A stretch of DNA of 64,000 nt, taken from Flavobacteriales bacterium. GTDB taxonomy: Bacteria > Bacteroidota > Bacteroidia > NS11-12g > UBA955. Shown here one piece after another: positions 1,845 through 21,229 of this stretch. The position numbers and the translations under genes were made by a program. The DNA lies in the NCBI GenBank assembly GCA_947496375.1, contig CANMCY010000006.1, positions 1-64,000 of the forward strand, given 5' to 3'. The notes beneath the pieces were generated by a model that saw nothing but the letters and a program-made list of their open reading frames with translations, ran no database searches and was not told the DNA's origin. Numbering within the stretch: position 1 is the stretch's first letter; each line of letters begins with the position of its first letter.

Positions 1845-3112
1845 TTGTTGCGAACGATGGTTTTGTCTCTTTCAGGTCCCAGTGAAATTACACGAATGGG
1901 TGTATTCAGGTTTTCTTCAATAAAAGCAATGTAGTCCTTGAAAGCATCAGGCAATGCTTCAAAACCTCCGCTGTGGTCGAGATGGGGGCCAAAGCCGGCA
2001 AAAGTTCGGTAATTGGGTAGAACTTCAGTGCTGCATAGGTTGGCCGGCACCTGCTGGGTTTCCTCTCCGTGGATGGTGTAGGAGGTGGCTGCTTTTACTT
2101 CGGGAATATCACACATCACATCCGATTTCATCATGATGAGCTCGTCTACACCGTTCAGCATGCACGTATATTTCAGGGCTACCATGTCCAGCCATCCGGT
2201 TCTGCGTGGCCTACCGGTGGTGGCGCCGAATTCATGTCCTTTTTTACGCAGCAGTTCCCCCATGTCATCATTCAGTTCTGTAGGGAAAGGACCGCCGCCC
2301 ACACGGGTGCAGTAGGCCTTGAAAATGCCATACACCTTGCGGATGTGCTTGGGTGCAACGCCCAGTCCACTGCATACGCCGCCGGCCAGGGTGGTGCTGG
2401 AGGTAACGAAGGGATAGGAGCCAAACTCCACATCAAGCATGGAACCCTGGGCGCCTTCTGCCAGTATTTTCTTGCCTTGCTGTATCGCTTCGTTAATCAG
2501 GTATTCAGAGTTTACCAGCTGTAGTTTTTTCAGTGCTTCCAATGCACTAAAGAAGGCAGTCTCTTCTTCCTGCAGGTTGAATTGGGTATAGCCGAGAGAG
2601 GCGATCTGTGTAAGATGCATTTCCACGGTTTGGCGGTAACGCTCCATGAAATCTTTTTCCAATGCATCGCCAATGCGAAGTCCGCTACGTCCGGTTTTGT
2701 CGCGGTAGGTGGGCCCTATCCCACGCAGGGTACTCCCGATTTTAGCATCGCCTTTGGCGGCCTCAGAGGCGGCATCCAGAATGCGGTGCGTGGGCAAAAT
2801 CAGGTGTGCCTTTTTTGAAACCAGCAATCTATCTGCGTAGTCGGGGCACTCGTCTTTGATACGGTCAATTTCGGCCTGAAGGCGAATGGGATCCACCACC
2901 ACGCCGTTTCCTATCACATTCAGTATTCCTTTTCGGAAAATACCGGAAGGAATGGTATTCAGTACAAACTTTTTGCCTTCAAATTCCAAGCTGTGGCCGG
3001 CGTTGGGCCCCCCTTGAAAACGGGCGACAATGTCGTATTGCGGGGTTAAAAAATCGGCGATTTTGCCTTTGCCTTCGTCGCCCCATTGAAGGCCTAAAAT
3101 TACATCAACCAT
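1841..3112 (-). CDS. purA: adenylosuccinate synthetase
   Basis: The 423-aa PurA joins IMP and aspartate with GTP to give adenylosuccinate, the committed step to AMP. The N-terminal GTP/IMP loop QWGDEGKGKI is intact, as are GGPNAGHS and the later signature GATTGRPRRTGWLD. Length is normal. It is the middle gene of a three-gene leftward operon: its start overlaps the end of the fur-family gene by 8 bases and its stop overlaps the next ATG by 4. Expression is therefore likely driven from the promoter in front of the regulator gene. Confidence 0.97.
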   Translation of the reverse strand: MVDVILGLQWGDEGKGKIADFLTPQYDIVARFQGGPNAGHSLEFEGKKFVLNTIPSGIFRKGILNVIGNGVVVDPIRLQAEIDRIKDECPDYADRLLVSKKAHLILPTHRILDAASEAAKGDAKIGSTLRGIGPTYRDKTGRSGLRIGDALEKDFMERYRQTVEMHLTQIASLGYTQFNLQEEETAFFSALEALKKLQLVNSEYLINEAIQQGKKILAEGAQGSMLDVEFGSYPFVTSSTTLAGGVCSGLGVAPKHIRKVYGIFKAYCTRVGGGPFPTELNDDMGELLRKKGHEFGATTGRPRRTGWLDMVALKYTCMLNGVDELIMMKSDVMCDIPEVKAATSYTIHGEETQQVPANLCSTEVLPNYRTFAGFGPHLDHSGGFEALPDAFKDYIAFIEENLNTPIRVISLGPERDKTIVRNK

Positions 3113-3626
3113 TCGGGTTTATATTATCAGTGTTGGAGAGATTTTTACCACAGTGCATGCAGTCGCCATTTAAAATTTGCGGCTGTGCATAGAGATGCAG
3201 GGAGTGGTGTGTTACATCGAACTTTAGCAGGTTGCCCATGGTGGTATTGATCTGCTGTACCCTGGGATCGCAGAACTCTACCACTTTTTTGCAGGTAACG
3301 CAGATGAGGTGATCATGCTGCTTGAAACCGAAGGCCTGCTCAAAATGGGAGGTGTTTTCGCCAAACTGGTGTTTTTTGACCAACCCTGAATCTACCAGCA
3401 AATCTAGTGTATTGTATACCGTGGCGCGGCTAACATGGTAGTTGCGGTTTTTCATTTTCAGGTACAGTGTATCTACGTCAAAATGTTCTTTGTGGGTGTA
3501 GATTTCATCCAGAATGGCGTATCGTTCGGGGGTTTTGCGCTGTTTTTTCTTTTCCAGGTATGCCGTAAAGATTTCGCGTACTTCCTCTTTAATTTTCAGG
3601 GTTTTGCTATCGAGTTTACCGGGCAT
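3105..3626 (-). CDS. Fur-family metal-responsive repressor
   Basis: The 173-aa protein has the Fur/Zur/PerR layout: a winged-helix DNA-binding half (YHVSRATVYNTLDLLVDSGL is the recognition region), then a metal-binding half starting around FEQAFGFKQHDHLICVTC. Two CxxC pairs, in CVTCKK and CMHCGK, form the structural zinc site. Which metal it senses cannot be read from the sequence. It is the first gene of the fur-purA-FAH operon. The only other metal-related locus in the window is the TonB cluster at 17.7-21.2 kb, an obvious but unproven target. A TAAATTTG box lies 18 bases before the start. Confidence 0.92.
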   Translation of the reverse strand: MPGKLDSKTLKIKEEVREIFTAYLEKKKQRKTPERYAILDEIYTHKEHFDVDTLYLKMKNRNYHVSRATVYNTLDLLVDSGLVKKHQFGENTSHFEQAFGFKQHDHLICVTCKKVVEFCDPRVQQINTTMGNLLKFDVTHHSLHLYAQPQILNGDCMHCGKNLSNTDNINPNG

Positions 3627-4191: not shown

Positions 4192-5691
4192 ATGTCGGAA
4201 AAAGCAGCACTCGTGATTCTGGATGGCTGGGGCATAGGAAGGCATGACCGCAGCGATGCTATTTGGAATGCCAAAACCCCTTTCACCGATATGCTGTGGG
4301 ATACTTTTCCTCATGCTTCGCTGAGAACTGATGGCGAACATGTGGGTTTGCCGGAAGGGCAAATGGGAAACAGTGAAGTGGGCCACATGAACATTGGTGC
4401 CGGGCGGATTGTCTGGCAAATGCTTGTGCGCATCAACAAAGCATTCTCTGATGGCAGCATTTCCGAAAACACCATGCTGCAAAAGGTTTTTGCCTGCAAA
4501 GGCAAATTGCACCTCATGGGTCTGGTGAGTGACGGTGGTGTGCATTCTCACATTGATCATGCCATTGCGTTAGGCAAAATGGCCGCAGAAGCAGGCGTGA
4601 AAGATGTATTTATACATGCTTTTCTGGATGGCAGGGATACCGATCCCAAAAGTGGATTAAACTTTATTAAACGCCTTCAGGACGAGTTAAATGGAACTGG
4701 GGTAAATCTTAGTACCGCTGTGGGTAGATATTACGCCATGGACCGCGACAAGCGCTGGGAACGCGTAAAAAAGGCCTATGACCTGATGGTAAATGGCGTA
4801 GGAGAATATGTAGCGTCTGCCGAAGCCGGTATTGCTGCCCAATACGAAGCCGGCATCACCGATGAATTCATGGAGCCCCTGCGCTTTTTGCCGGGTTCCG
4901 AGGGGCTGATATGTGAGGGTGATACGGTGTTGTGTTTTAATTTTCGCACCGACCGCGGACGGCAAATAACAAGGGCGCTCACACAGGAAAACTTCCCCGA
5001 TCAGGGAATGCGTGCCCTGATTCTGGATTATTATACCCTCACCGAATACGATGAGACTTTCAAAATAGCGGGCGTAATTTTTGAAAATCAGAACCTGACC
5101 GATACGCTGGGCGATGTGCTTTCGGCTGCCGGCAAAACGCAGTTGCGTGCCGCTGAAACTGAAAAATATCCCCACGTTACCTTTTTCTTCTCAGGCGGCA
5201 GGGAAGAGCCCTTCTTAGGCGAGGAGCGCATCATGGCCGCTTCGCCGAAAGTGGCCACTTACGATTTGCAACCGGAAATGAGTGCGCACGAGCTTACCCA
5301 AAATGCCATCGCTTTTCTCGAGGAGAAACAACCCGATTTTATTTGTCTCAATTTTGCCAATCCGGATATGGTAGGCCATACCGGTGTTTTTAATGCCATT
5401 GTGAAGGCCTGTGAAACGGTAGACGACTGCCTGAGAAGACTAGTGGAAGTAGGTTTGAAGCACCAATACCACTTTCTTATCATTGCCGATCATGGCAATG
5501 CAGATATGGCCGTGAATGAAGATGGATCGCCTAATACCGCGCATACCACAAATCCTGTTCCCTGCTGGCTCGTAAGCCAAACAATCAATCCGCACCTGCA
5601 CAATGGGATACTGGCTGATGTGGCACCCACCATTCTGAAAATGATGCAACTTCCACAACCTACGGCCATGACGGGGAGGGCGCTGTTTTGA
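4192..5691 (+). CDS. gpmI: 2,3-bisphosphoglycerate-independent phosphoglycerate mutase
   Basis: The 499-aa enzyme interconverts 3- and 2-phosphoglycerate in glycolysis with two Mn ions. The alkaline-phosphatase-like metal site begins at D11 in VILDGWGIG. The phosphorylated nucleophile is S61 in QMGNSEVGH, and the phosphotransfer domain carries HIDHAIALG and FLDGRDTDP. Late metal ligands appear in NPDMVGHTG and ADHGNAD. Length is standard. It heads a four-gene rightward operon with the lipoprotein, aldehyde dehydrogenase and thiL. No ribosome binding site is seen; its promoter box ends only four bases before the ATG. Confidence 0.97.
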   Translation: MSEKAALVILDGWGIGRHDRSDAIWNAKTPFTDMLWDTFPHASLRTDGEHVGLPEGQMGNSEVGHMNIGAGRIVWQMLVRINKAFSDGSISENTMLQKVFACKGKLHLMGLVSDGGVHSHIDHAIALGKMAAEAGVKDVFIHAFLDGRDTDPKSGLNFIKRLQDELNGTGVNLSTAVGRYYAMDRDKRWERVKKAYDLMVNGVGEYVASAEAGIAAQYEAGITDEFMEPLRFLPGSEGLICEGDTVLCFNFRTDRGRQITRALTQENFPDQGMRALILDYYTLTEYDETFKIAGVIFENQNLTDTLGDVLSAAGKTQLRAAETEKYPHVTFFFSGGREEPFLGEERIMAASPKVATYDLQPEMSAHELTQNAIAFLEEKQPDFICLNFANPDMVGHTGVFNAIVKACETVDDCLRRLVEVGLKHQYHFLIIADHGNADMAVNEDGSPNTAHTTNPVPCWLVSQTINPHLHNGILADVAPTILKMMQLPQPTAMTGRALF

Positions 5692-6239
5692 GGTTCCTGT
5701 TAGTTACCCCGTTGGTTGTGTTGTTGGCATGCAATAGCAATTCCGGCAAGGTCCGTCTGCAATCCGGATTGCCTGATATTAAAGTGTATTTTCAGGAAGA
5801 AATTAAAAAATTGTCAGCAGATCAGCCCGGCCTGGATAAAACAATTTCTATGGGGGATGAGATTGCTGCATTCAGCGAGGATTCCCTGGATTGGGCTACT
5901 GAATTACTTCCTTTTACTGCCCTGGATATGATGTCTGCCTCCTACTCGCAGGCTTTCAATGTGACTGCCGACAGCAATGAGCGACTGAGCATCACCCGTT
6001 TCAGTGCCAAAGACACTGCACTGGAAATTCAGGAAATCAGTCTCACGCGCCGCAATTATAACCTGGAAATGATGGAGATTAAAACCCGCAAACGCAGTAT
6101 GTGGGTAGACCGGGATCAGGTGCTAAGTTATTTGCCCGGAAAGGGTTATAATATTATGATAACAGAAGATTACATTTGGTCTTCACCTAAGCGAACTGAA
6201 ATAATGGGTACTTTTAAACGACAGCAATTCAAACCATGA
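5688..6239 (+). CDS. predicted lipoprotein of unknown function
   Basis: The 183-aa protein is not recognised. It starts with TTG overlapping the gpmI stop (TTGA). This start is chosen because it gives a full lipoprotein signal, RFLLVTPLVVLLAC, with lipobox LLAC and Cys at residue 15; the next in-frame ATG would remove it. The mature part is mixed alpha/beta and charged, with an Arg/Lys-rich stretch (LTRRNYNLEMMEIKTRKR) near residue 130. A membrane-anchored envelope role is inferred. It overlaps the next ATG by 4 bases, so translation is coupled in the gpmI operon. Confidence 0.75.
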   Translation: MRFLLVTPLVVLLACNSNSGKVRLQSGLPDIKVYFQEEIKKLSADQPGLDKTISMGDEIAAFSEDSLDWATELLPFTALDMMSASYSQAFNVTADSNERLSITRFSAKDTALEIQEISLTRRNYNLEMMEIKTRKRSMWVDRDQVLSYLPGKGYNIMITEDYIWSSPKRTEIMGTFKRQQFKP

Positions 6240-7672
6240 TCAGCATAAACCATTTTATCAACGGCGAATTTGTTGCGCCCACCGGCGGCGAATACCTGGA
6301 TAATTTTAATCCTGCCACCGGAGAGGTTTTTGCAAAAATTGCAAACGGTACAAGCCATGATGTGCAAAAAGCCGTAGATGCAGCTAAAATCGCATTCCCT
6401 GCATGGAAAGCCATGCCGTCCGAAGATCGTTTTCGCATCCTGAATGCCATTGCAGAAGGGATTGAAGCCAACCTGGAGGAATTGGCCGCGGCTGAAAGCC
6501 GTGATCAGGGAAAGCCCCTTTGGTTGTCAAAATCTGAGATGCTGCGTGCATCGCAGAATTTCAGGTTTTTTGCTACTGCAGCGGTTCAATTTGCCTCAGA
6601 AAGCCATCAGACCGATACCCGTGCCATTAATTATACGCTCAGACAACCGGTGGGAATTGTGGGATGTATAAGTCCCTGGAATCTGCCCCTGTATCTTTTC
6701 ACTTGGAAAATAGCACCCGCACTGGCTGCCGGAAACTGCGTAATCGCCAAACCCAGTGAGTTTACTCCCCTCACAGCCCATTTATTCTGTGAGATCGCGA
6801 AAAAGGCCGGTTTGCCTCCCGGGGTACTGAATGTGGTTCATGGTTTAGGTAGTACCTGTGGTCAGGCGATTGTGGAGCATCCTGAAATCAAGGCCATTTC
6901 CTTCACCGGGGGAACATCCACCGGCAAACATATTGCCGCTGTGGCCGCACCCATGTTTAAAAAACTTAGTCTGGAACTGGGAGGTAAAAATCCCAATATC
7001 ATATTTGATGACGCAGATCTGAACGAGGCGGTGAAGACCAGCGTGCGTTCTTCATTCCTCAACCAGGGTGAAATATGCCTTTGCGGATCCAGAGTATTCG
7101 TACATACCCGTGTGTATGGTGCTTTCAAAGCCGCACTGTTGCAGGAAGTGGCCAAAATGCAGGTGGGAGACCCGTTTGATGAAAAAACCCGGGTTGGTGC
7201 CATTGTTTCAAAGCCCCATTTTGATAAGGTTTTGTCATATATCGAACTTGCCAAACAGGAGGGAGGTACGATTTTATGCGGTGGAGAATCCGTAAAACCT
7301 GCCGGATTAGAAAGTGGTTGGTTTATTGCACCCACCATCATAGAGGGTCTGAATGCCACCTGCCGCACCAATACGGAAGAGATTTTTGGTCCGGTGATTT
7401 CTTTGATTCCATTCGATACGGAAGAGGAAGTGTTGGAGATGGCCAACGGAACCGCCTACGGACTGGCTTCTACTTTGTGGACCAATGACTTGAAAAGAGC
7501 CCACCGGATGGCGGAGGCACTTCATTCGGGCATTGTATGGGTGAATTGCTGGTTGCTGCGCGACCTCCGCACCCCGTTTGGCGGCGTAAAACAAAGTGGC
7601 GTAGGGAGAGAGGGCGGATGGGAGGCCATGCGATTCTTTACTGAACCTAAAAATGTGTGCATAGCTTATTAA
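6236..7672 (+). CDS. NAD-dependent aldehyde dehydrogenase (2-aminomuconate/hydroxymuconate semialdehyde type)
   Basis: The 478-aa enzyme oxidises an aldehyde to the acid. It has the Rossmann part (SPWNLPLYLFTWKIAPALAA), the catalytic Glu in KLSLELGGKNP and the catalytic Cys at C281 in NQGEICLCGSR, with the C-terminal EIFGPVISL and PFGGVKQSG. The GEICLC active-site context resembles ALDH8-type 2-aminomuconic and 2-hydroxymuconic semialdehyde dehydrogenases of the kynurenine or catechol meta-cleavage pathways. This is a family-level inference. A RidA protein resembling 2-aminomuconate deaminase is at 45.4 kb. Its start overlaps the upstream lipoprotein by 4 bases. Confidence 0.88.
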   Translation: MISINHFINGEFVAPTGGEYLDNFNPATGEVFAKIANGTSHDVQKAVDAAKIAFPAWKAMPSEDRFRILNAIAEGIEANLEELAAAESRDQGKPLWLSKSEMLRASQNFRFFATAAVQFASESHQTDTRAINYTLRQPVGIVGCISPWNLPLYLFTWKIAPALAAGNCVIAKPSEFTPLTAHLFCEIAKKAGLPPGVLNVVHGLGSTCGQAIVEHPEIKAISFTGGTSTGKHIAAVAAPMFKKLSLELGGKNPNIIFDDADLNEAVKTSVRSSFLNQGEICLCGSRVFVHTRVYGAFKAALLQEVAKMQVGDPFDEKTRVGAIVSKPHFDKVLSYIELAKQEGGTILCGGESVKPAGLESGWFIAPTIIEGLNATCRTNTEEIFGPVISLIPFDTEEEVLEMANGTAYGLASTLWTNDLKRAHRMAEALHSGIVWVNCWLLRDLRTPFGGVKQSGVGREGGWEAMRFFTEPKNVCIAY

Positions 7673-14071: not shown

Positions 14072-14611
14072 TTATGGTTGACCAAACATAAGTCCAACTT
14101 CGGCCTTGATAAACTGAATTGCTTTATCTGTGGGTTGTTCGCCGTGATTTTTAAGGTATTCAACAATCATGTTGCTTAGATCATTGGCACTTGCCTGCTC
14201 GGGCATGCCCGAAGATGCCTCAGTGATGAGGCCTATCACCTGCTCTTTTACTACTTTGATAAGATTCCATGCCTGCGGGCTCATGTAAATCTGCTGTGAT
14301 AAATTGTAGTTATACTCATTTTGAACGGTAGTAATAAGGATGTGTCTGAGTGCTTTTCCGCTCATGTCTGGCTGATTGTGCGTTTGCAGCAGCTGAATGG
14401 GACTGATTCTCTCCAGAAACAGGGTCATTCTTTCATAGGCCTGCAGTTTAATGGGGGTTAGCACATGCTGATTTTGTTTTAATACCTCAAGCCGCAATCT
14501 TGACAGTTGTGATTCCCCCTGATTTTTGAGCACAAAATAGGCTGTAAAGAACACCATGATGGCTGGTAGGATGAACTTTAGAACTTCAATAAAGACTTCG
14601 ACGTTGTTCAT
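14072..14611 (-). CDS. membrane-anchored protein of unknown function (DUF7935-like)
   Basis: The 179-aa protein begins [20 protein letters not shown], one N-terminal transmembrane helix, then a soluble, helical, charged domain ([20 protein letters not shown] onward). The start at 14611 is chosen because upstream codons read through the divergent promoter region. It resembles a Bacteroidota-only family I know as DUF7935; function is unknown. It is 2 bases upstream of the mutase gene and presumably co-transcribed. I see no residues that suggest an enzyme. Confidence 0.7.
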
Positions 14612-14691
14612 TTTTTGGGTTCTGCAAATATAATTATAATGAGTGCGATTATTGCCATGGGTAGGTGGAAACGATTCGTGTGAAAAACTGT

Positions 14692-14699
14692 TAACTTTG
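14692..14699 (+). promoter_or_regulatory. -7 element of the A-type Fe-S carrier gene
   Basis: TAACTTTG, exact match to TAnnTTTG, ending 12 bases before the ATG at 14712. Predicted leader about 8 bases. Confidence 0.55.
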
Positions 14700-14711
14700 C
14701 ATATTATACTC

Positions 14712-15068
14712 ATGGAAACAACGAATGTTCATGTAGAGGCCCCACCGGTTCAATTTACCCAATCTGCCATCACAGAATTGCATCGCCTGAAGAGTGAACT
14801 GGCCGGTGCTGAAGAATCGTATCTCAGAATTGGAGTTAAAGGTGGCGGCTGTTCCGGATTGAGCTATCTGCTTGCTTTTGATAAAAAGGAGGATGGCGAC
14901 AGAGAGTATGCAGTTGAGGGTATTTCAGTGGTCATGAACAAAGCGCATGTAATGTATGTATTGGGTATGGTAGTAGATTGGGAAAATGGCTTGAATAACC
15001 GGGGATTTACGTTCAATAATCCCAATGCAAAGGAAACCTGTGGCTGCGGTCAGAGTTTCAATGCTTAA
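14712..15068 (+). CDS. A-type iron-sulfur cluster carrier (HesB/IscA/ErpA family)
   Basis: The 118-aa protein carries or inserts Fe-S clusters. The three conserved cysteines are present: C47 in GGGCSGLSY and C110/C112 in the C-terminal ETCGCGQSF. Length and spacing are normal for the family. Which client pathway (Suf or Isc) it serves cannot be told; no suf or isc genes are adjacent. The ATG at 14712 is chosen over an upstream codon because it follows the promoter box. Mrp and NifU, two more Fe-S factors, are at 58-59 kb. Confidence 0.93.
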   Translation: METTNVHVEAPPVQFTQSAITELHRLKSELAGAEESYLRIGVKGGGCSGLSYLLAFDKKEDGDREYAVEGISVVMNKAHVMYVLGMVVDWENGLNNRGFTFNNPNAKETCGCGQSFNA

Positions 15069-17695: not shown

Positions 17696-18214
17696 TTACC
17701 GGATGGATAAGGGGAAGGTCACATCCACATCAGTTTCCCCTTTATCGCAGGTTCCATCCTTGCTTTTGGGCTGGTGTTTGAGGATGATTCTTACCATACC
17801 GCCCGATTTTTTAGCTGGTTTCCATTCCGTAGATAAACCAATGGCAAATTTCCCGTCACTGTCTGTGGCTTTGATATCAAGTACATCTGAAGTCGGACCA
17901 CTGTAGCAAACAAAATGTTCTGAACCTTCATTTCTGATTTCAGTGGTGATGTCTTCATCTCCATTGAAAAACTGTATTTCTCCATTGTAATTTTCTGTTG
18001 AATCGCAAACAATGGTATCCGCCTGTTTAGGAGCATTTCCACCAATGCCGTCGGGGTCGCTCCAGACAAAAGTTTTGGCGGTTCCGCCCAATTTTGGGGT
18101 TAGCGTCAACTTAACCGTGGTGATGTTTTCTCCTTCGTCGTGTTTATGACAGGATGAGAGATTCAACAGCGCTGTTGTGGCTGCCATTAAGACAAGTAAA
18201 TTTGTTTTTTTCAT
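17696..18214 (-). CDS. lipoprotein of the 'type 1 periplasmic binding fold' family, metal locus
   Basis: The 172-aa lipoprotein has a lipobox ending LNLSSC at Cys 22, followed by a metal-binding-like HKHDEGEN. The mature domain has the family pattern I know from proteins annotated 'type 1 periplasmic binding fold superfamily': FVWSDPDGIGG, NYNGEIQFFN, TEIRNEGSEHFVCY and a C-terminal RIILKHQP...GETDVDVTF. These are regularly found beside TonB receptors; function is unproven. It lies 20 bases after the TonB receptor gene, as last gene of the cluster. A periplasm-facing metal-binding role is inferred from the His/Asp/Glu start and the context. Confidence 0.75.
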   Translation of the reverse strand: MKKTNLLVLMAATTALLNLSSCHKHDEGENITTVKLTLTPKLGGTAKTFVWSDPDGIGGNAPKQADTIVCDSTENYNGEIQFFNGDEDITTEIRNEGSEHFVCYSGPTSDVLDIKATDSDGKFAIGLSTEWKPAKKSGGMVRIILKHQPKSKDGTCDKGETDVDVTFPLSIR

Positions 18215-18233
18215 GTTTTTTTCTTATATTAGG

Positions 18234-20510
18234 TTAAAGGTGTTTTTTGTGATGATGGTGTAGGGGTTTGATGATGACTATGCGGATGTTTCGACCCGGC
18301 ATGTCCATAAAATACCTGAATCGATCCATATAGCTGCGATAGCCTCGGTTAAGCAAGTTGTTTATTTCAACATGCCATCGCCATGAATTTTGTTTTTCCT
18401 GTGTTGATTTTACCATTAGGTGAAACAAGTGGTAGGCGGGGGGAGGAGGCAGGAAATCACTGCCCTTGTTATACAGGTTTTGCCTGCCTATATATTCATG
18501 ATGCAGCTTGTATGTCAGTCTTTTAAATTTCCAAGATAGTCTGTTTTGAATTCTGAACGGGGGTAAAAATGCCGGATATCGATTGTCTTGTATGTATTTC
18601 CCATGTACGTATTGAAGGTCATTCTGTATTTCCAACCGATTGAAAAGCATCGTTTTGATTTGCAGGTCACCTCCAACGTAACGCGCGTTGCCCTGCAGGT
18701 ATTCAAATCCGGGGAATGCGCCGCGCACTGTTTGAACTGCATCCCGCATGGGGGTGAGGTTGATGAATCCCGGCATGTAATTAAAAAAAGGGGATAGGTA
18801 TACTGTGAATTTTTGGTTGGGATGATATTCCCATTCCATTTCGGCACGGTAACTTCTTTCAATTCCGAGATTGCGGTTACCCTGCTCAAATGAAGCAGCC
18901 CCATGATGCACGCCTGCAGCATAAAGCTCATTTACCCAAGGCGCCCTCCACATGCTCGATAAATGCCATTGAAAAAAATGTTTTTCGGTTTGGATTAAAC
19001 CCGTGTAGGCAGCGCTGTAATGGATAAAAAATCGTGATTGCTGCTGCCAGGTGCCGTTAATCCGCTCTCGGGCCGAAATTTGTTTTTCATCCAAACGCAG
19101 ACTCAAAGTATGAGCGGTCTTTTCCCTATGTTTATGCAGAATGGCATAGGTACCGTTGCTAAAGCCCTGAAAATCCGGCAGAAAATAGAATCCGCCAAAA
19201 CGATGTAAATAACCTGTGACCTGATTGCCCCATTCCCACTGGGTTTCTGCTCCGGTTTTTATCACCTGTCTGTAAATAACTGACGGCGAAAGCAGGATTA
19301 AATCCAGTTGTGGAAAGTGGTTGTTGCTATTGCGGTGGAAATCAAACTCCCTACGCTGGTCATACTGAAATGCGTAGTGCCATTCCCGCTTTCCGTTGGC
19401 TGTGGCAATAATATTGGATCCCTGCAGCGTACCATGAATGGCAACCTGTCTGGGTTGTGCTATCCGGTATGTGAATTGATTGTCTGTTACAGGATCATCG
19501 CGATTGATGGCTTTGAGTAGATCTTCTGTACTTCCTGTGCGGGTTCCCCTGAAAATTCCACTTTCAAAACGGTAAAATTCCCCGTCCCAGCGGATTTCAC
19601 GGCTGTTTTTTTGTAGCGAATAGCCCCCTGAAACCGAAATTTCCGTCAGTGCGGTGTTTTCCAGCCACAGATCCGGAGTGCGGTAATTTCCTGATTTTCT
19701 CAATGCGGCATTGGCGAAAACAACCGGTGCTGCACTATCTGCCTTCTGAATAAATCGCAATGCATATCCTCCCTGATGTCCGTTGCTGTTGTAGGACACT
19801 GCCTGGTCAAGGTTTTGTTCTCCTTCATGCGCGTGGGTCTGTCGCTCCAGCCGGAGAGCTCCTCCAATCGCATCATGACCATATTTTAGGAGGTTGGCGT
19901 CTTTTATCCAAGCGATTTCATCAAATCCGCGGGCATCGGCCTCCGGATTATGGTCGTTTCCCCAGGTCTGCCCTTCCAGTCTGAATTGCCGGCTGATAAT
20001 GGGAAATCTGAGTCCATACATCCCATGCGCTATCGGTTTGCTTTGGTTTCTACCACCCTGCAGGATTTGAATACCGGGCAATGATGCACTGATGGTGCTG
20101 AGGTCACGGTCGTTCTCCTCCATAATTTTTTGACCATTCAAGGCCATTGCCGCCGATTTTTCTTTTTCGGCATGAATGGTAATGGTATCAGACCACGCAC
20201 TCACTGTAGACAAGTAAATTACAATCTGGGTATCGCTGTAAACGTATAATTCCTGATGCAGATGTTGAAATCCTTGTCTGTCTACTTCTATTAAAACAGG
20301 CCCCTGACACAGTCCGTTAAGCGAGAAAAAACCTTCTTTACTGCTTTGTGAATGCAGATGACCTGTTTCTACAAACACTTCAGCAAAGGGAACAGGAAGA
20401 CTGTCGTGAACATTTCGTATTTGTCCACGAACTACTGCATTGCATTTGTTTTGGGCCATGAGTGACCCAAAGGCAAGCAGGATGACACATCCCAGTGATA
20501 TACGTTTCAT
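18234..20510 (-). CDS. TonB-dependent outer-membrane receptor with His-rich C-terminus
   Basis: The 758-aa protein has a signal peptide (MKRISLGCVILLAFGSLMAQ), a carboxypeptidase-like N-terminal beta domain (VVRGQIRNVHDSLPVPFAEV), a plug domain (DLSTISASLPGIQILQGGRN) and a beta barrel. It ends PLHHHHKKHL. Many His residues also appear in plug and loops (THAHEGEQN, NDHNPEAD, NNHFPQ). Size is small for the phylum and close to metal or siderophore receptors such as ZnuD/CirA. Zinc or another transition metal as cargo is an inference from His content and the metal-like neighbours. It follows the His/Cys protein gene by 55 bases that contain two hairpins. Confidence 0.85.
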   Translation of the reverse strand: MKRISLGCVILLAFGSLMAQNKCNAVVRGQIRNVHDSLPVPFAEVFVETGHLHSQSSKEGFFSLNGLCQGPVLIEVDRQGFQHLHQELYVYSDTQIVIYLSTVSAWSDTITIHAEKEKSAAMALNGQKIMEENDRDLSTISASLPGIQILQGGRNQSKPIAHGMYGLRFPIISRQFRLEGQTWGNDHNPEADARGFDEIAWIKDANLLKYGHDAIGGALRLERQTHAHEGEQNLDQAVSYNSNGHQGGYALRFIQKADSAAPVVFANAALRKSGNYRTPDLWLENTALTEISVSGGYSLQKNSREIRWDGEFYRFESGIFRGTRTGSTEDLLKAINRDDPVTDNQFTYRIAQPRQVAIHGTLQGSNIIATANGKREWHYAFQYDQRREFDFHRNSNNHFPQLDLILLSPSVIYRQVIKTGAETQWEWGNQVTGYLHRFGGFYFLPDFQGFSNGTYAILHKHREKTAHTLSLRLDEKQISARERINGTWQQQSRFFIHYSAAYTGLIQTEKHFFQWHLSSMWRAPWVNELYAAGVHHGAASFEQGNRNLGIERSYRAEMEWEYHPNQKFTVYLSPFFNYMPGFINLTPMRDAVQTVRGAFPGFEYLQGNARYVGGDLQIKTMLFNRLEIQNDLQYVHGKYIQDNRYPAFLPPFRIQNRLSWKFKRLTYKLHHEYIGRQNLYNKGSDFLPPPPAYHLFHLMVKSTQEKQNSWRWHVEINNLLNRGYRSYMDRFRYFMDMPGRNIRIVIIKPLHHHHKKHL

Positions 20511-20523
20511 TTTTTTCCTGTAT

Positions 20524-20549
20524 TGATACCTTTCTGAGGCGAGGTATCA
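20524..20549 (-). promoter_or_regulatory. hairpin in the leader of the TonB receptor gene
   Basis: TGATACCT and AGGTATCA form a perfect 8-bp stem around a 10-base loop, 14 bases upstream of the TonB receptor ATG. No T-tract follows, so it is not a terminator. Possible mRNA processing or translation control element. Confidence 0.4.
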
Positions 20550-20551
20550 GC

Positions 20552-20575
20552 GCCCTGTTTACGGATTAACAGGGC
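20552..20575 (-). promoter_or_regulatory. second hairpin, spanning the stop codon of the His/Cys protein gene
   Basis: GCCCTGTT and AACAGGGC form a perfect 8-bp stem with an 8-base loop. The TAA stop (20568-20566) of the upstream gene lies at its stem-loop junction. Only two bases separate it from the next hairpin. No T-tract follows. Confidence 0.4.
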
Positions 20576-20874
20576 AAAACAGGCGGGGCTTTGTTTTGAT
20601 TAAGGCCACCGGTAATATAGGGAACGGGTGTTTCGCAGAACGGATAGGAAATGTATCGGTAACTGAAGTAATAGCGTACTTCCGGACTGCCAATATCATC
20701 GCTCAGCAGAGCGGACTGATTGCAAATGTCACAATCTTCTTCCAAGGAGGATTGTGCATGGTTGTATGTGCTGAATTCAGTATCATGGCAATCATGCAGC
20801 CAAGACCGGGGTGTTTGCACTAGCAGCGTGCAGAATAGAAAGAAAAGCGCGATATATTTACGCAGAATCTGCAT
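20566..20874 (-). CDS. small secreted His/Cys-motif protein of the metal locus
   Basis: The 102-aa protein starts with a hydrophobic signal segment (ALFFLFCTLLVQT). It then has a dense Cys/His/Asp region: WLHDCHDTE, a lone His, and DCDICNQS, giving a likely metal site. The end, NKAPPVLPC, resembles the 'GPP/APP' tails of small Bacteroidota proteins that sit next to TonB receptors. I know no biochemical function. Its ATG overlaps the stop of the upstream 108-aa gene (TAATG), and the TonB receptor follows. It may hand metal to or sense metal for the receptor; this is inference. Confidence 0.7.
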   Translation of the reverse strand: MQILRKYIALFFLFCTLLVQTPRSWLHDCHDTEFSTYNHAQSSLEEDCDICNQSALLSDDIGSPEVRYYFSYRYISYPFCETPVPYITGGLNQNKAPPVLPC

Positions 20875-21200
20875 TAGGCCATGGCCTGAAGCATATTGGT
20901 CATTTCCCGGATTTCATCCCTGTTGTAGGTGTTTTCCGATTTGATGGCCAGAGAAATCAGGTAGTTGAAGTTTTCTTCGGTGGATTCCCCATCCTCAAGA
21001 TAGGTAAGATCAAATCCATCATTGCTTTCCAGATGCTGCCAGCACAGTCTCAGTGCACGTGTTAGCAAAGGGTCTTCTTCTTTGAGAGCATATTCCCGGG
21101 CCTGCTGAAGGAGGGGAACGATTTTATCGGGCTGAATTCCGTTTTTTTCTACCTGCTTCAATATTTTATCCAGGATTGTATTGGCTTCTGCGGTGCGCAT
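20874..21200 (-). CDS. acidic 108-aa hypothetical protein, first gene of the metal locus
   Basis: I do not recognise this 108-aa protein. It is cytosolic by sequence, helical and acidic, starting MRTAEANTILDKILKQVEKNG and containing LQQAREYALKEEDPLLTRAL and YLEDGESTEENFNYL. No enzyme motif, CxxC pair or His cluster is seen. The ATG at 21200 is chosen because the TATATTTG promoter box lies upstream of it and any earlier start would precede that box. Its stop overlaps the next ATG by one base, tying it to the His/Cys protein and TonB receptor, but that may be operon convenience. Confidence 0.6.
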   Translation of the reverse strand: MRTAEANTILDKILKQVEKNGIQPDKIVPLLQQAREYALKEEDPLLTRALRLCWQHLESNDGFDLTYLEDGESTEENFNYLISLAIKSENTYNRDEIREMTNMLQAMA

Positions 21201-21221
21201 GTCTTTTCGTGAATTGGAATG

Positions 21222-21229
21222 CAAATATA
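21222..21229 (-). promoter_or_regulatory. -7 element of the metal-locus operon
   Basis: TATATTTG on the minus strand, exact TAnnTTTG match, ending 21 bases before the ATG of the 108-aa gene. An imperfect dyad (TGAATTGGAATGCA, 21210-21223) overlaps its edge and the expected transcript start. Confidence 0.5.

Follow-up and report, generated by a model that had tools for sequence, protein, structure and literature searches.

What is the role of a small open reading frame (ORF) with histidine and cysteine motifs that lies directly before the gene of a TonB-dependent receptor? The question is raised by a compact operon of a Flavobacteriales bacterium (assembly GCA_947496375.1, contig CANMCY010000006.1, positions 1 to 64,000; this whole 64-kb stretch is called the window). 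Four collinear, tightly packed ORFs were confirmed on the minus strand at 17696-21229, coding in this order for a 108-amino-acid (aa) protein, a 102-aa His/Cys protein, the receptor and a lipoprotein. A first-pass annotation had proposed transition-metal (perhaps zinc) uptake for this operon, and the details it gave were all present: the TAATG by which the start of the 102-aa ORF overlaps the stop of the 108-aa gene, the HHHHKKH end of the receptor and the HKHDEGEN start of the lipoprotein. Sequence comparison makes it likely that these genes form an outer-membrane uptake unit of zinc type, under the control of a metal sensor that acts as a nascent peptide and resembles CruR of Bordetella pertussis. 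Comparative evidence is the whole basis of the arrest-peptide reading, which is the most likely one; from it we infer stalling, zinc as the effector, and the direction and mode of control.

The 102-aa ORF carries the following features.

20566..20874, minus strand: exported His/Cys protein of 102 aa, predicted to be a CruR-like arrest peptide that senses a metal, and upstream ORF (uORF) of the receptor, with H27, C48xxC51 and P97P98 invariant.
20722..20733, minus strand: codons of C48-x-x-C51, predicted nascent-chain metal motif, from the alignment.
20581..20592, minus strand: codons of K95-A96-P97-P98, predicted RAPP-like ribosome-arrest motif, from the alignment (RAPP arrest in PMC12992588, PMC9426467).

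Among 15 relatives of the protein, only the start Met, H27, C48, C51, P97 and P98 are shared. Four residues separate the KAPP of the window protein from the stop, the spacing from CxxC to the motif is 43 residues, and no other ORF of the window has both CxxC and the C-terminal motif. The relatives sampled comprised 58 related genomes and 104 non-redundant receptor loci, and 50 genomes were reached via named contigs. An ORF with a C-terminal [KR][AGSD]PP was found directly upstream of the receptor, or of the lipoprotein-receptor pair, in 47 of the 104 loci. The motif was RGPP in 16, RAPP in 12, KAPP in 8, KGPP in 7, KSPP in 2 and KDPP in 2 (RAPP/RGPP in 28/47, Lys variants in 19/47), with 2-9 residues remaining before the stop. 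The distance from CxxC to the motif was 43-47 residues in 43/43 uORFs with a CxxC (exactly 43 in 22; mean 44.0, standard deviation 1.3); the length before the CxxC in the same uORFs ranged from 38 to 79 residues (standard deviation 7.8), and the 30 residues before it held 1-9 His in every case. Among 4010 further ORFs of comparable length, no more than 2 ended in [KR][AGSD]PP, neither with a CxxC, and loci fetched afterwards agreed with the pattern of motif and spacing. The other four uORFs (L126, L144, L153 and L183) have no CxxC; in three of them its place is taken by HxHC, at 46-50 residues, which may be another kind of metal site.

Since the C-terminal [KR]xPP and its distance of 43-47 residues to the CxxC are constant in a protein whose body is barely conserved, the 102-aa ORF is probably a CruR-like metal-sensing arrest peptide rather than a metal carrier. 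The first-pass annotation had taken the secreted protein with the CHD and DCDIC motifs as a part of the uptake machinery, a role that explains this constant spacing less well. A periplasmic metal chaperone or surface binder handing zinc to the receptor or lipoprotein would fit the export signal (judged by eye), the 1-9 His before the CxxC and the location beside the receptor; a carrier would leave unexplained why an otherwise hardly conserved protein keeps its C-terminal motif and the spacing, and the uORF is absent from more than half of the receptor loci, so that we regard a chaperone as unlikely.

CruR (DUF2946) of the B. pertussis cruR-crtA/bfrG system has a CxxC, a C-terminal RAPP, a spacing of 45 residues and a TonB receptor downstream (PMC9426467). 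Its RAPP is required for receptor expression and its CxxC for copper control, and the signal peptide is dispensable (PMC9426467); arrest at RAPP was demonstrated in vitro (PMC12992588). Like CruR (PMC9426467, PMC12992588), the uORF of the window is small and exported, precedes a TonB receptor and has a CxxC; the KAPP near its stop is the candidate counterpart of RAPP. The spacing is 43 in the window and 43-47 in the family, compared with a near-constant 45 (within a residue or two) in CruR. Unlike CruR, the family of the window has an additional His cluster and a motif that may begin with either Lys or Arg; it goes with a ZnuD-type receptor, with a lipoprotein instead of PepSY_TM and with a short, hairpin-bearing gap, and its distribution is complementary to that of Zur. 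A CruR-type uORF heads an operon with a TonB receptor, and the uORF of the window stands immediately before its receptor; in this lineage it is itself preceded by the 108-aa gene. RAPP/RGPP uORFs upstream of TonB receptors were found across Gram-negative phyla by proteome mining (PMC12992588), and the uORF of the window is of the same general class. Being restricted to RAPP/RGPP, the survey would miss KxPP members such as the one in the window, and it names no zinc role (PMC12992588). No description of a zinc-sensing arrest peptide or of Lys motif variants was found in the literature searched.

The features of the receptor are as follows.

18234..20510, minus strand: ZnuD-type TonB-dependent receptor of 758 aa with an N-terminal carboxypeptidase-regulatory-like domain, probable from profile, model and ligand conservation.
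19950..19955, minus strand: codons of D186-H187, plug residues matching ZnuD D99-H100 in the alignment (ligands in PMC4557270).
19347..19349, minus strand: codon of E388, invariant in 32/32 receptors, candidate equivalent of ZnuD E340, lying outside the coverage of the sequence alignment.
18906..18908, minus strand: codon of H535, equivalent of ZnuD H499 in the alignment, invariant.

Pfam gave only a weak plug match and the N-terminal domain. When a profile of 23 receptor relatives was compared with the PDB, ZnuD ranked first (5e-36; OprC 4e-25). An AlphaFold2 model built from 32 sequences (mean pLDDT 85.8) had ZnuD as its best match both in Foldseek (4.5e-33) and in VIA-align (Z 38.7 with 2.4 A over 578 residues, against Z 35 for OprC). 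The zinc ligands of Neisseria ZnuD are D99, H100, E340 and H499 (PMC4557270); D99, H100 and H499 are matched in the window receptor, and E340 probably is. In 32/32 receptors position 186 is D or E, and H187, E388 and H535 are invariant. The receptor differs from ZnuD in its 15-17% identity, the extra N-terminal domain and the paired lipoprotein, and it scores 50 bits against the NCBIfam ZnuD model NF038289, below the cut-off of 950. With ZnuD as its closest match, by sequence as well as by fold, and with conserved residues at the ligand positions, the protein is probably a ZnuD-type receptor for metal (zinc) uptake. Transition-metal uptake thus keeps the support of the kinship with ZnuD and of its ligands and loses that of the His tail (HHHHKKHL) and of the HKHDEGE stretch, which are confined to close relatives; we therefore rejected the assignment of zinc from these two stretches. 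Of the proposed His/Cys enrichment of three successive exported products, only H27, C48 and C51 of the 102-aa protein are conserved; H187 and H535 of the receptor and H100 and H147 of the lipoprotein, which had not been listed, are conserved as well. In Olivibacter the locus encodes, on its other strand, a second receptor of the ZnuD-type group, which has its own RGPP uORF (L159:9808-12645).

The receptor is accompanied by one further exported protein.

17696..18214, minus strand: lipoprotein partner of the receptor, 172 aa, beta-sandwich model, with E29, D53, H100, D120, H147 and D162 invariant.

Receptor and lipoprotein were present in most of the 58 related genomes, and the lipoprotein adjoins the receptor in most loci, across Bacteroidota. 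The paired genes recall BtuB-BtuG of Bacteroidota, where receptor and lipoprotein genes also stand side by side; unlike that pair, the window lipoprotein family has neither a Pfam match nor a confident PDB fold match. Its N-terminus after the lipobox reads CHKHDEGEN. Modelling gave, with confidence (mean pLDDT 89.7), a beta-sandwich that has only weak matches to other beta-sandwiches, including CopC/PcoC; no match to a PDB sequence was found, and the best Foldseek hit had E 1.8e-3, none being below E 0.001. A plasmid search with the lipoprotein gave one hypothetical protein. Divergent second copies of the lipoprotein family without a receptor were seen at L080, L090, L107 and L108 (at about 5300-7200 in each), beside other small genes of 185-187 aa, and a carbonic anhydrase (Pro_CA) gene directly follows the lipoprotein at L091:8074-8649 (G042), a possible zinc-linked neighbour.

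Known control of zinc genes is transcriptional (Zur, AdcR, ZntR). At 14 receptor loci a Fur-family gene adjoins that of the receptor or of the lipoprotein. When 13 of the encoded proteins were combined into a profile, the leading PDB matches were E. coli Zur and M. tuberculosis FurB. The Cys that corresponds to Zur C88 is invariant in these proteins; within the Zur subfamily no other site-B residue is as conserved (PMC4219657). By these comparisons they are Zur-like. The uORF was found in 0/14 loci with a Zur-like neighbour versus 47/90 others (Fisher 1e-4, a value that ignores phylogeny). Among the 50 genomes, Zur was present in 29/29 without a uORF versus 10/21 with one (Fisher 9e-6, again ignoring phylogeny); among the 58 relatives some genomes had neither and at least two had both. 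No Zur was found in the window genome, whose single Fur-family gene has no C88-equivalent Cys, and no ABC-3 (ZnuB-type) permease was found there; one ZIP transporter was. The Fur-family gene, which the first-pass annotation had noted at 3.1 kb, is indeed present at 3105-3626 of the window; it is Fur-like rather than Zur-like, lacking the site-B Cys, and no link to the operon was found, so it was rejected as its regulator.

The Zur-like neighbours, the distribution of uORF and Zur and the window genome without Zur favour zinc over copper. A copper unit, importing and sensing this metal as a Bacteroidota counterpart of CruR-CrtA, would agree with the CruR architecture (PMC9426467), with OprC as second-ranked fold of the receptor and with the weak CopC/PcoC matches of the lipoprotein model. 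We hold it to be improbable in view of the conserved ZnuD zinc ligands, the Zur-like character of the adjacent regulator in related loci, the Pfam-sampled neighbourhoods, in which no copper gene was recognised, and the reported absence of Cu-related RAPP uORFs from some groups including Bacteroidota (PMC12992588). Among arrest peptides of the RAPP type, export monitors are the best known (PMC10987492), but a uORF that senses Sec or lipoprotein secretion status like SecM or VemP is very improbable here, given the His cluster and CxxC at a fixed distance from the arrest motif, downstream genes for a receptor and a lipoprotein rather than sec genes, and a CruR signal peptide that is not required (PMC9426467).

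How could a nascent zinc sensor act on the receptor gene? Two RNA elements lie between the two.

20553..20574, minus strand: hairpin 1, CCCTGTT/AACAGGG, with its 5' arm overlapping the last codons of the 102-aa ORF; 7 pairs invariant in 6 genomes.
20524..20549, minus strand: hairpin 2, TGATACC/GGTATCA, immediately ahead of the receptor gene; paired in 6 genomes.

The 55-bp gap and the final uORF codons fold as these two hairpins with -24.1 kcal/mol (z -4.3). All pairs of both are kept in 6 genomes, and in hairpin 2 two pairs have changed on both sides; hairpin 1 is invariant in these genomes, which makes a covariation test impossible. The hairpin 2 pattern occurs at one site per genome, at the receptor locus only, in the window genome and five congeners. 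Coming from few sequences, this conservation is modest evidence. In 44 gaps, folding downstream of the motif was more stable than in control stretches inside the receptor gene, which is no more than suggestive, as the composition of coding and intergenic sequence differs. The Rfam search of the region gave one sub-threshold chance match only.

In the mechanism that we propose, a promoter ahead of the 108-aa gene would drive the whole transcript. At low zinc the ribosome on the 102-aa ORF would stall at KAPP, 43 residues past the CxxC, which would by then have just emerged from the exit tunnel. Stalling on P97-P98 would leave the ribosome covering the beginning of the 5' arm of hairpin 1, and expression of receptor and lipoprotein would continue. 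Metal binding to the nascent His/CxxC segment would relieve the stall; the ribosome would depart, the hairpins could form and downstream expression would fall.

Several observations weigh against this reading. The Pfam family of CruR, DUF2946, does not match the window protein, and the best of its 15 relatives reaches E 0.2. The window motif is KAPP, not RAPP, and the Lys variant is unmentioned in the published motif tests, which took RAPP-like motifs starting with R, Q or H. Ten of the 50 genomes carry both Zur and the uORF, and the complementarity statistics ignore phylogeny. OprC ranks second among the fold matches, and copper is the metal that the known CruR senses. The computed accessibility of the receptor start with and without hairpin 1 showed no consistent direction. 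The gap between uORF and receptor is 55 bp versus 162 bp for CruR in B. pertussis, so that Rho-dependent termination within it is doubtful.

A broader proposal, to which we give an even chance, is that a phylum-wide family of zinc-sensing arrest peptides controls ZnuD-type receptors in Bacteroidota, replacing or supplementing Zur, with KAPP, KGPP, KSPP and KDPP among its motifs and, in the genus of the window, an RNA switch of two hairpins linked to stalling. In the literature searched, the metal-sensing arrest peptide that has been characterised, CruR, responds to copper (PMC9426467). Should the Bacteroidota peptides respond to zinc, a large phylum would have a second way of controlling zinc, through nascent chains and independent of Zur. 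The mechanism lends itself to direct tests, given the constant distance between the motifs, the K/R variation that occurs naturally and the uORF-or-Zur distribution. The case is also a caution against the annotation of small His/Cys ORFs of this type as metal carriers.

The beginning of the transcript is marked by two further features.

21222..21229, minus strand: likely -7 element of the promoter, TATATTTG, roughly 22 bp ahead of the 108-aa gene, kept in the same-genus upstream alignment.
20874..21200, minus strand: A108, acidic cytosolic protein of 108 aa, of a general Bacteroidota family.

TAnnTTTG is the consensus of the Bacteroidota promoter -7 element, and its conservation in the genus before the 108-aa gene indicates that this gene is probably the first of the transcript. 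The order of 108-aa gene, His/Cys ORF, receptor and lipoprotein was found in many genomes of the same taxonomic family, even with other flanking genes, which argues that the layout is not due to chance. A neighbourhood survey for the four-gene set, suggested with the first annotation, bears out the gene order within the family; elsewhere in the taxonomic order, in a different family, the 108-aa gene is separate from the receptor and lipoprotein genes, which remain paired. In G034 the 108-aa gene lies between gcvT and EamA (L085), with the receptor, lipoprotein and Zur-like genes at a separate locus (L084), and at L104, as at L085, it occurs without receptor genes. In the different family just mentioned, its relatives adjoin prfB in L101, L102 and L106 and cinA in L098, L101 and L102 (three fetched loci each), and matches of the protein in Pfam and NCBIfam were weak only. 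The 108-aa gene was therefore rejected as a metal-specific part of the operon; its place apart from the receptor in other lineages makes it a general Bacteroidota protein, probably a housekeeping gene that lends its promoter to the uptake unit. The neighbouring release-factor gene prfB hints at a translation-related or housekeeping role.

In the window the operon is flanked upstream by genes for an EamA transporter and a TerB-DnaJ protein and downstream by gcvT. Elsewhere in the window, 14072-14713 codes for a DUF7935 protein whose position between the genes for a methylmalonyl-CoA mutase subunit and an IscA-like protein is conserved family-wide.

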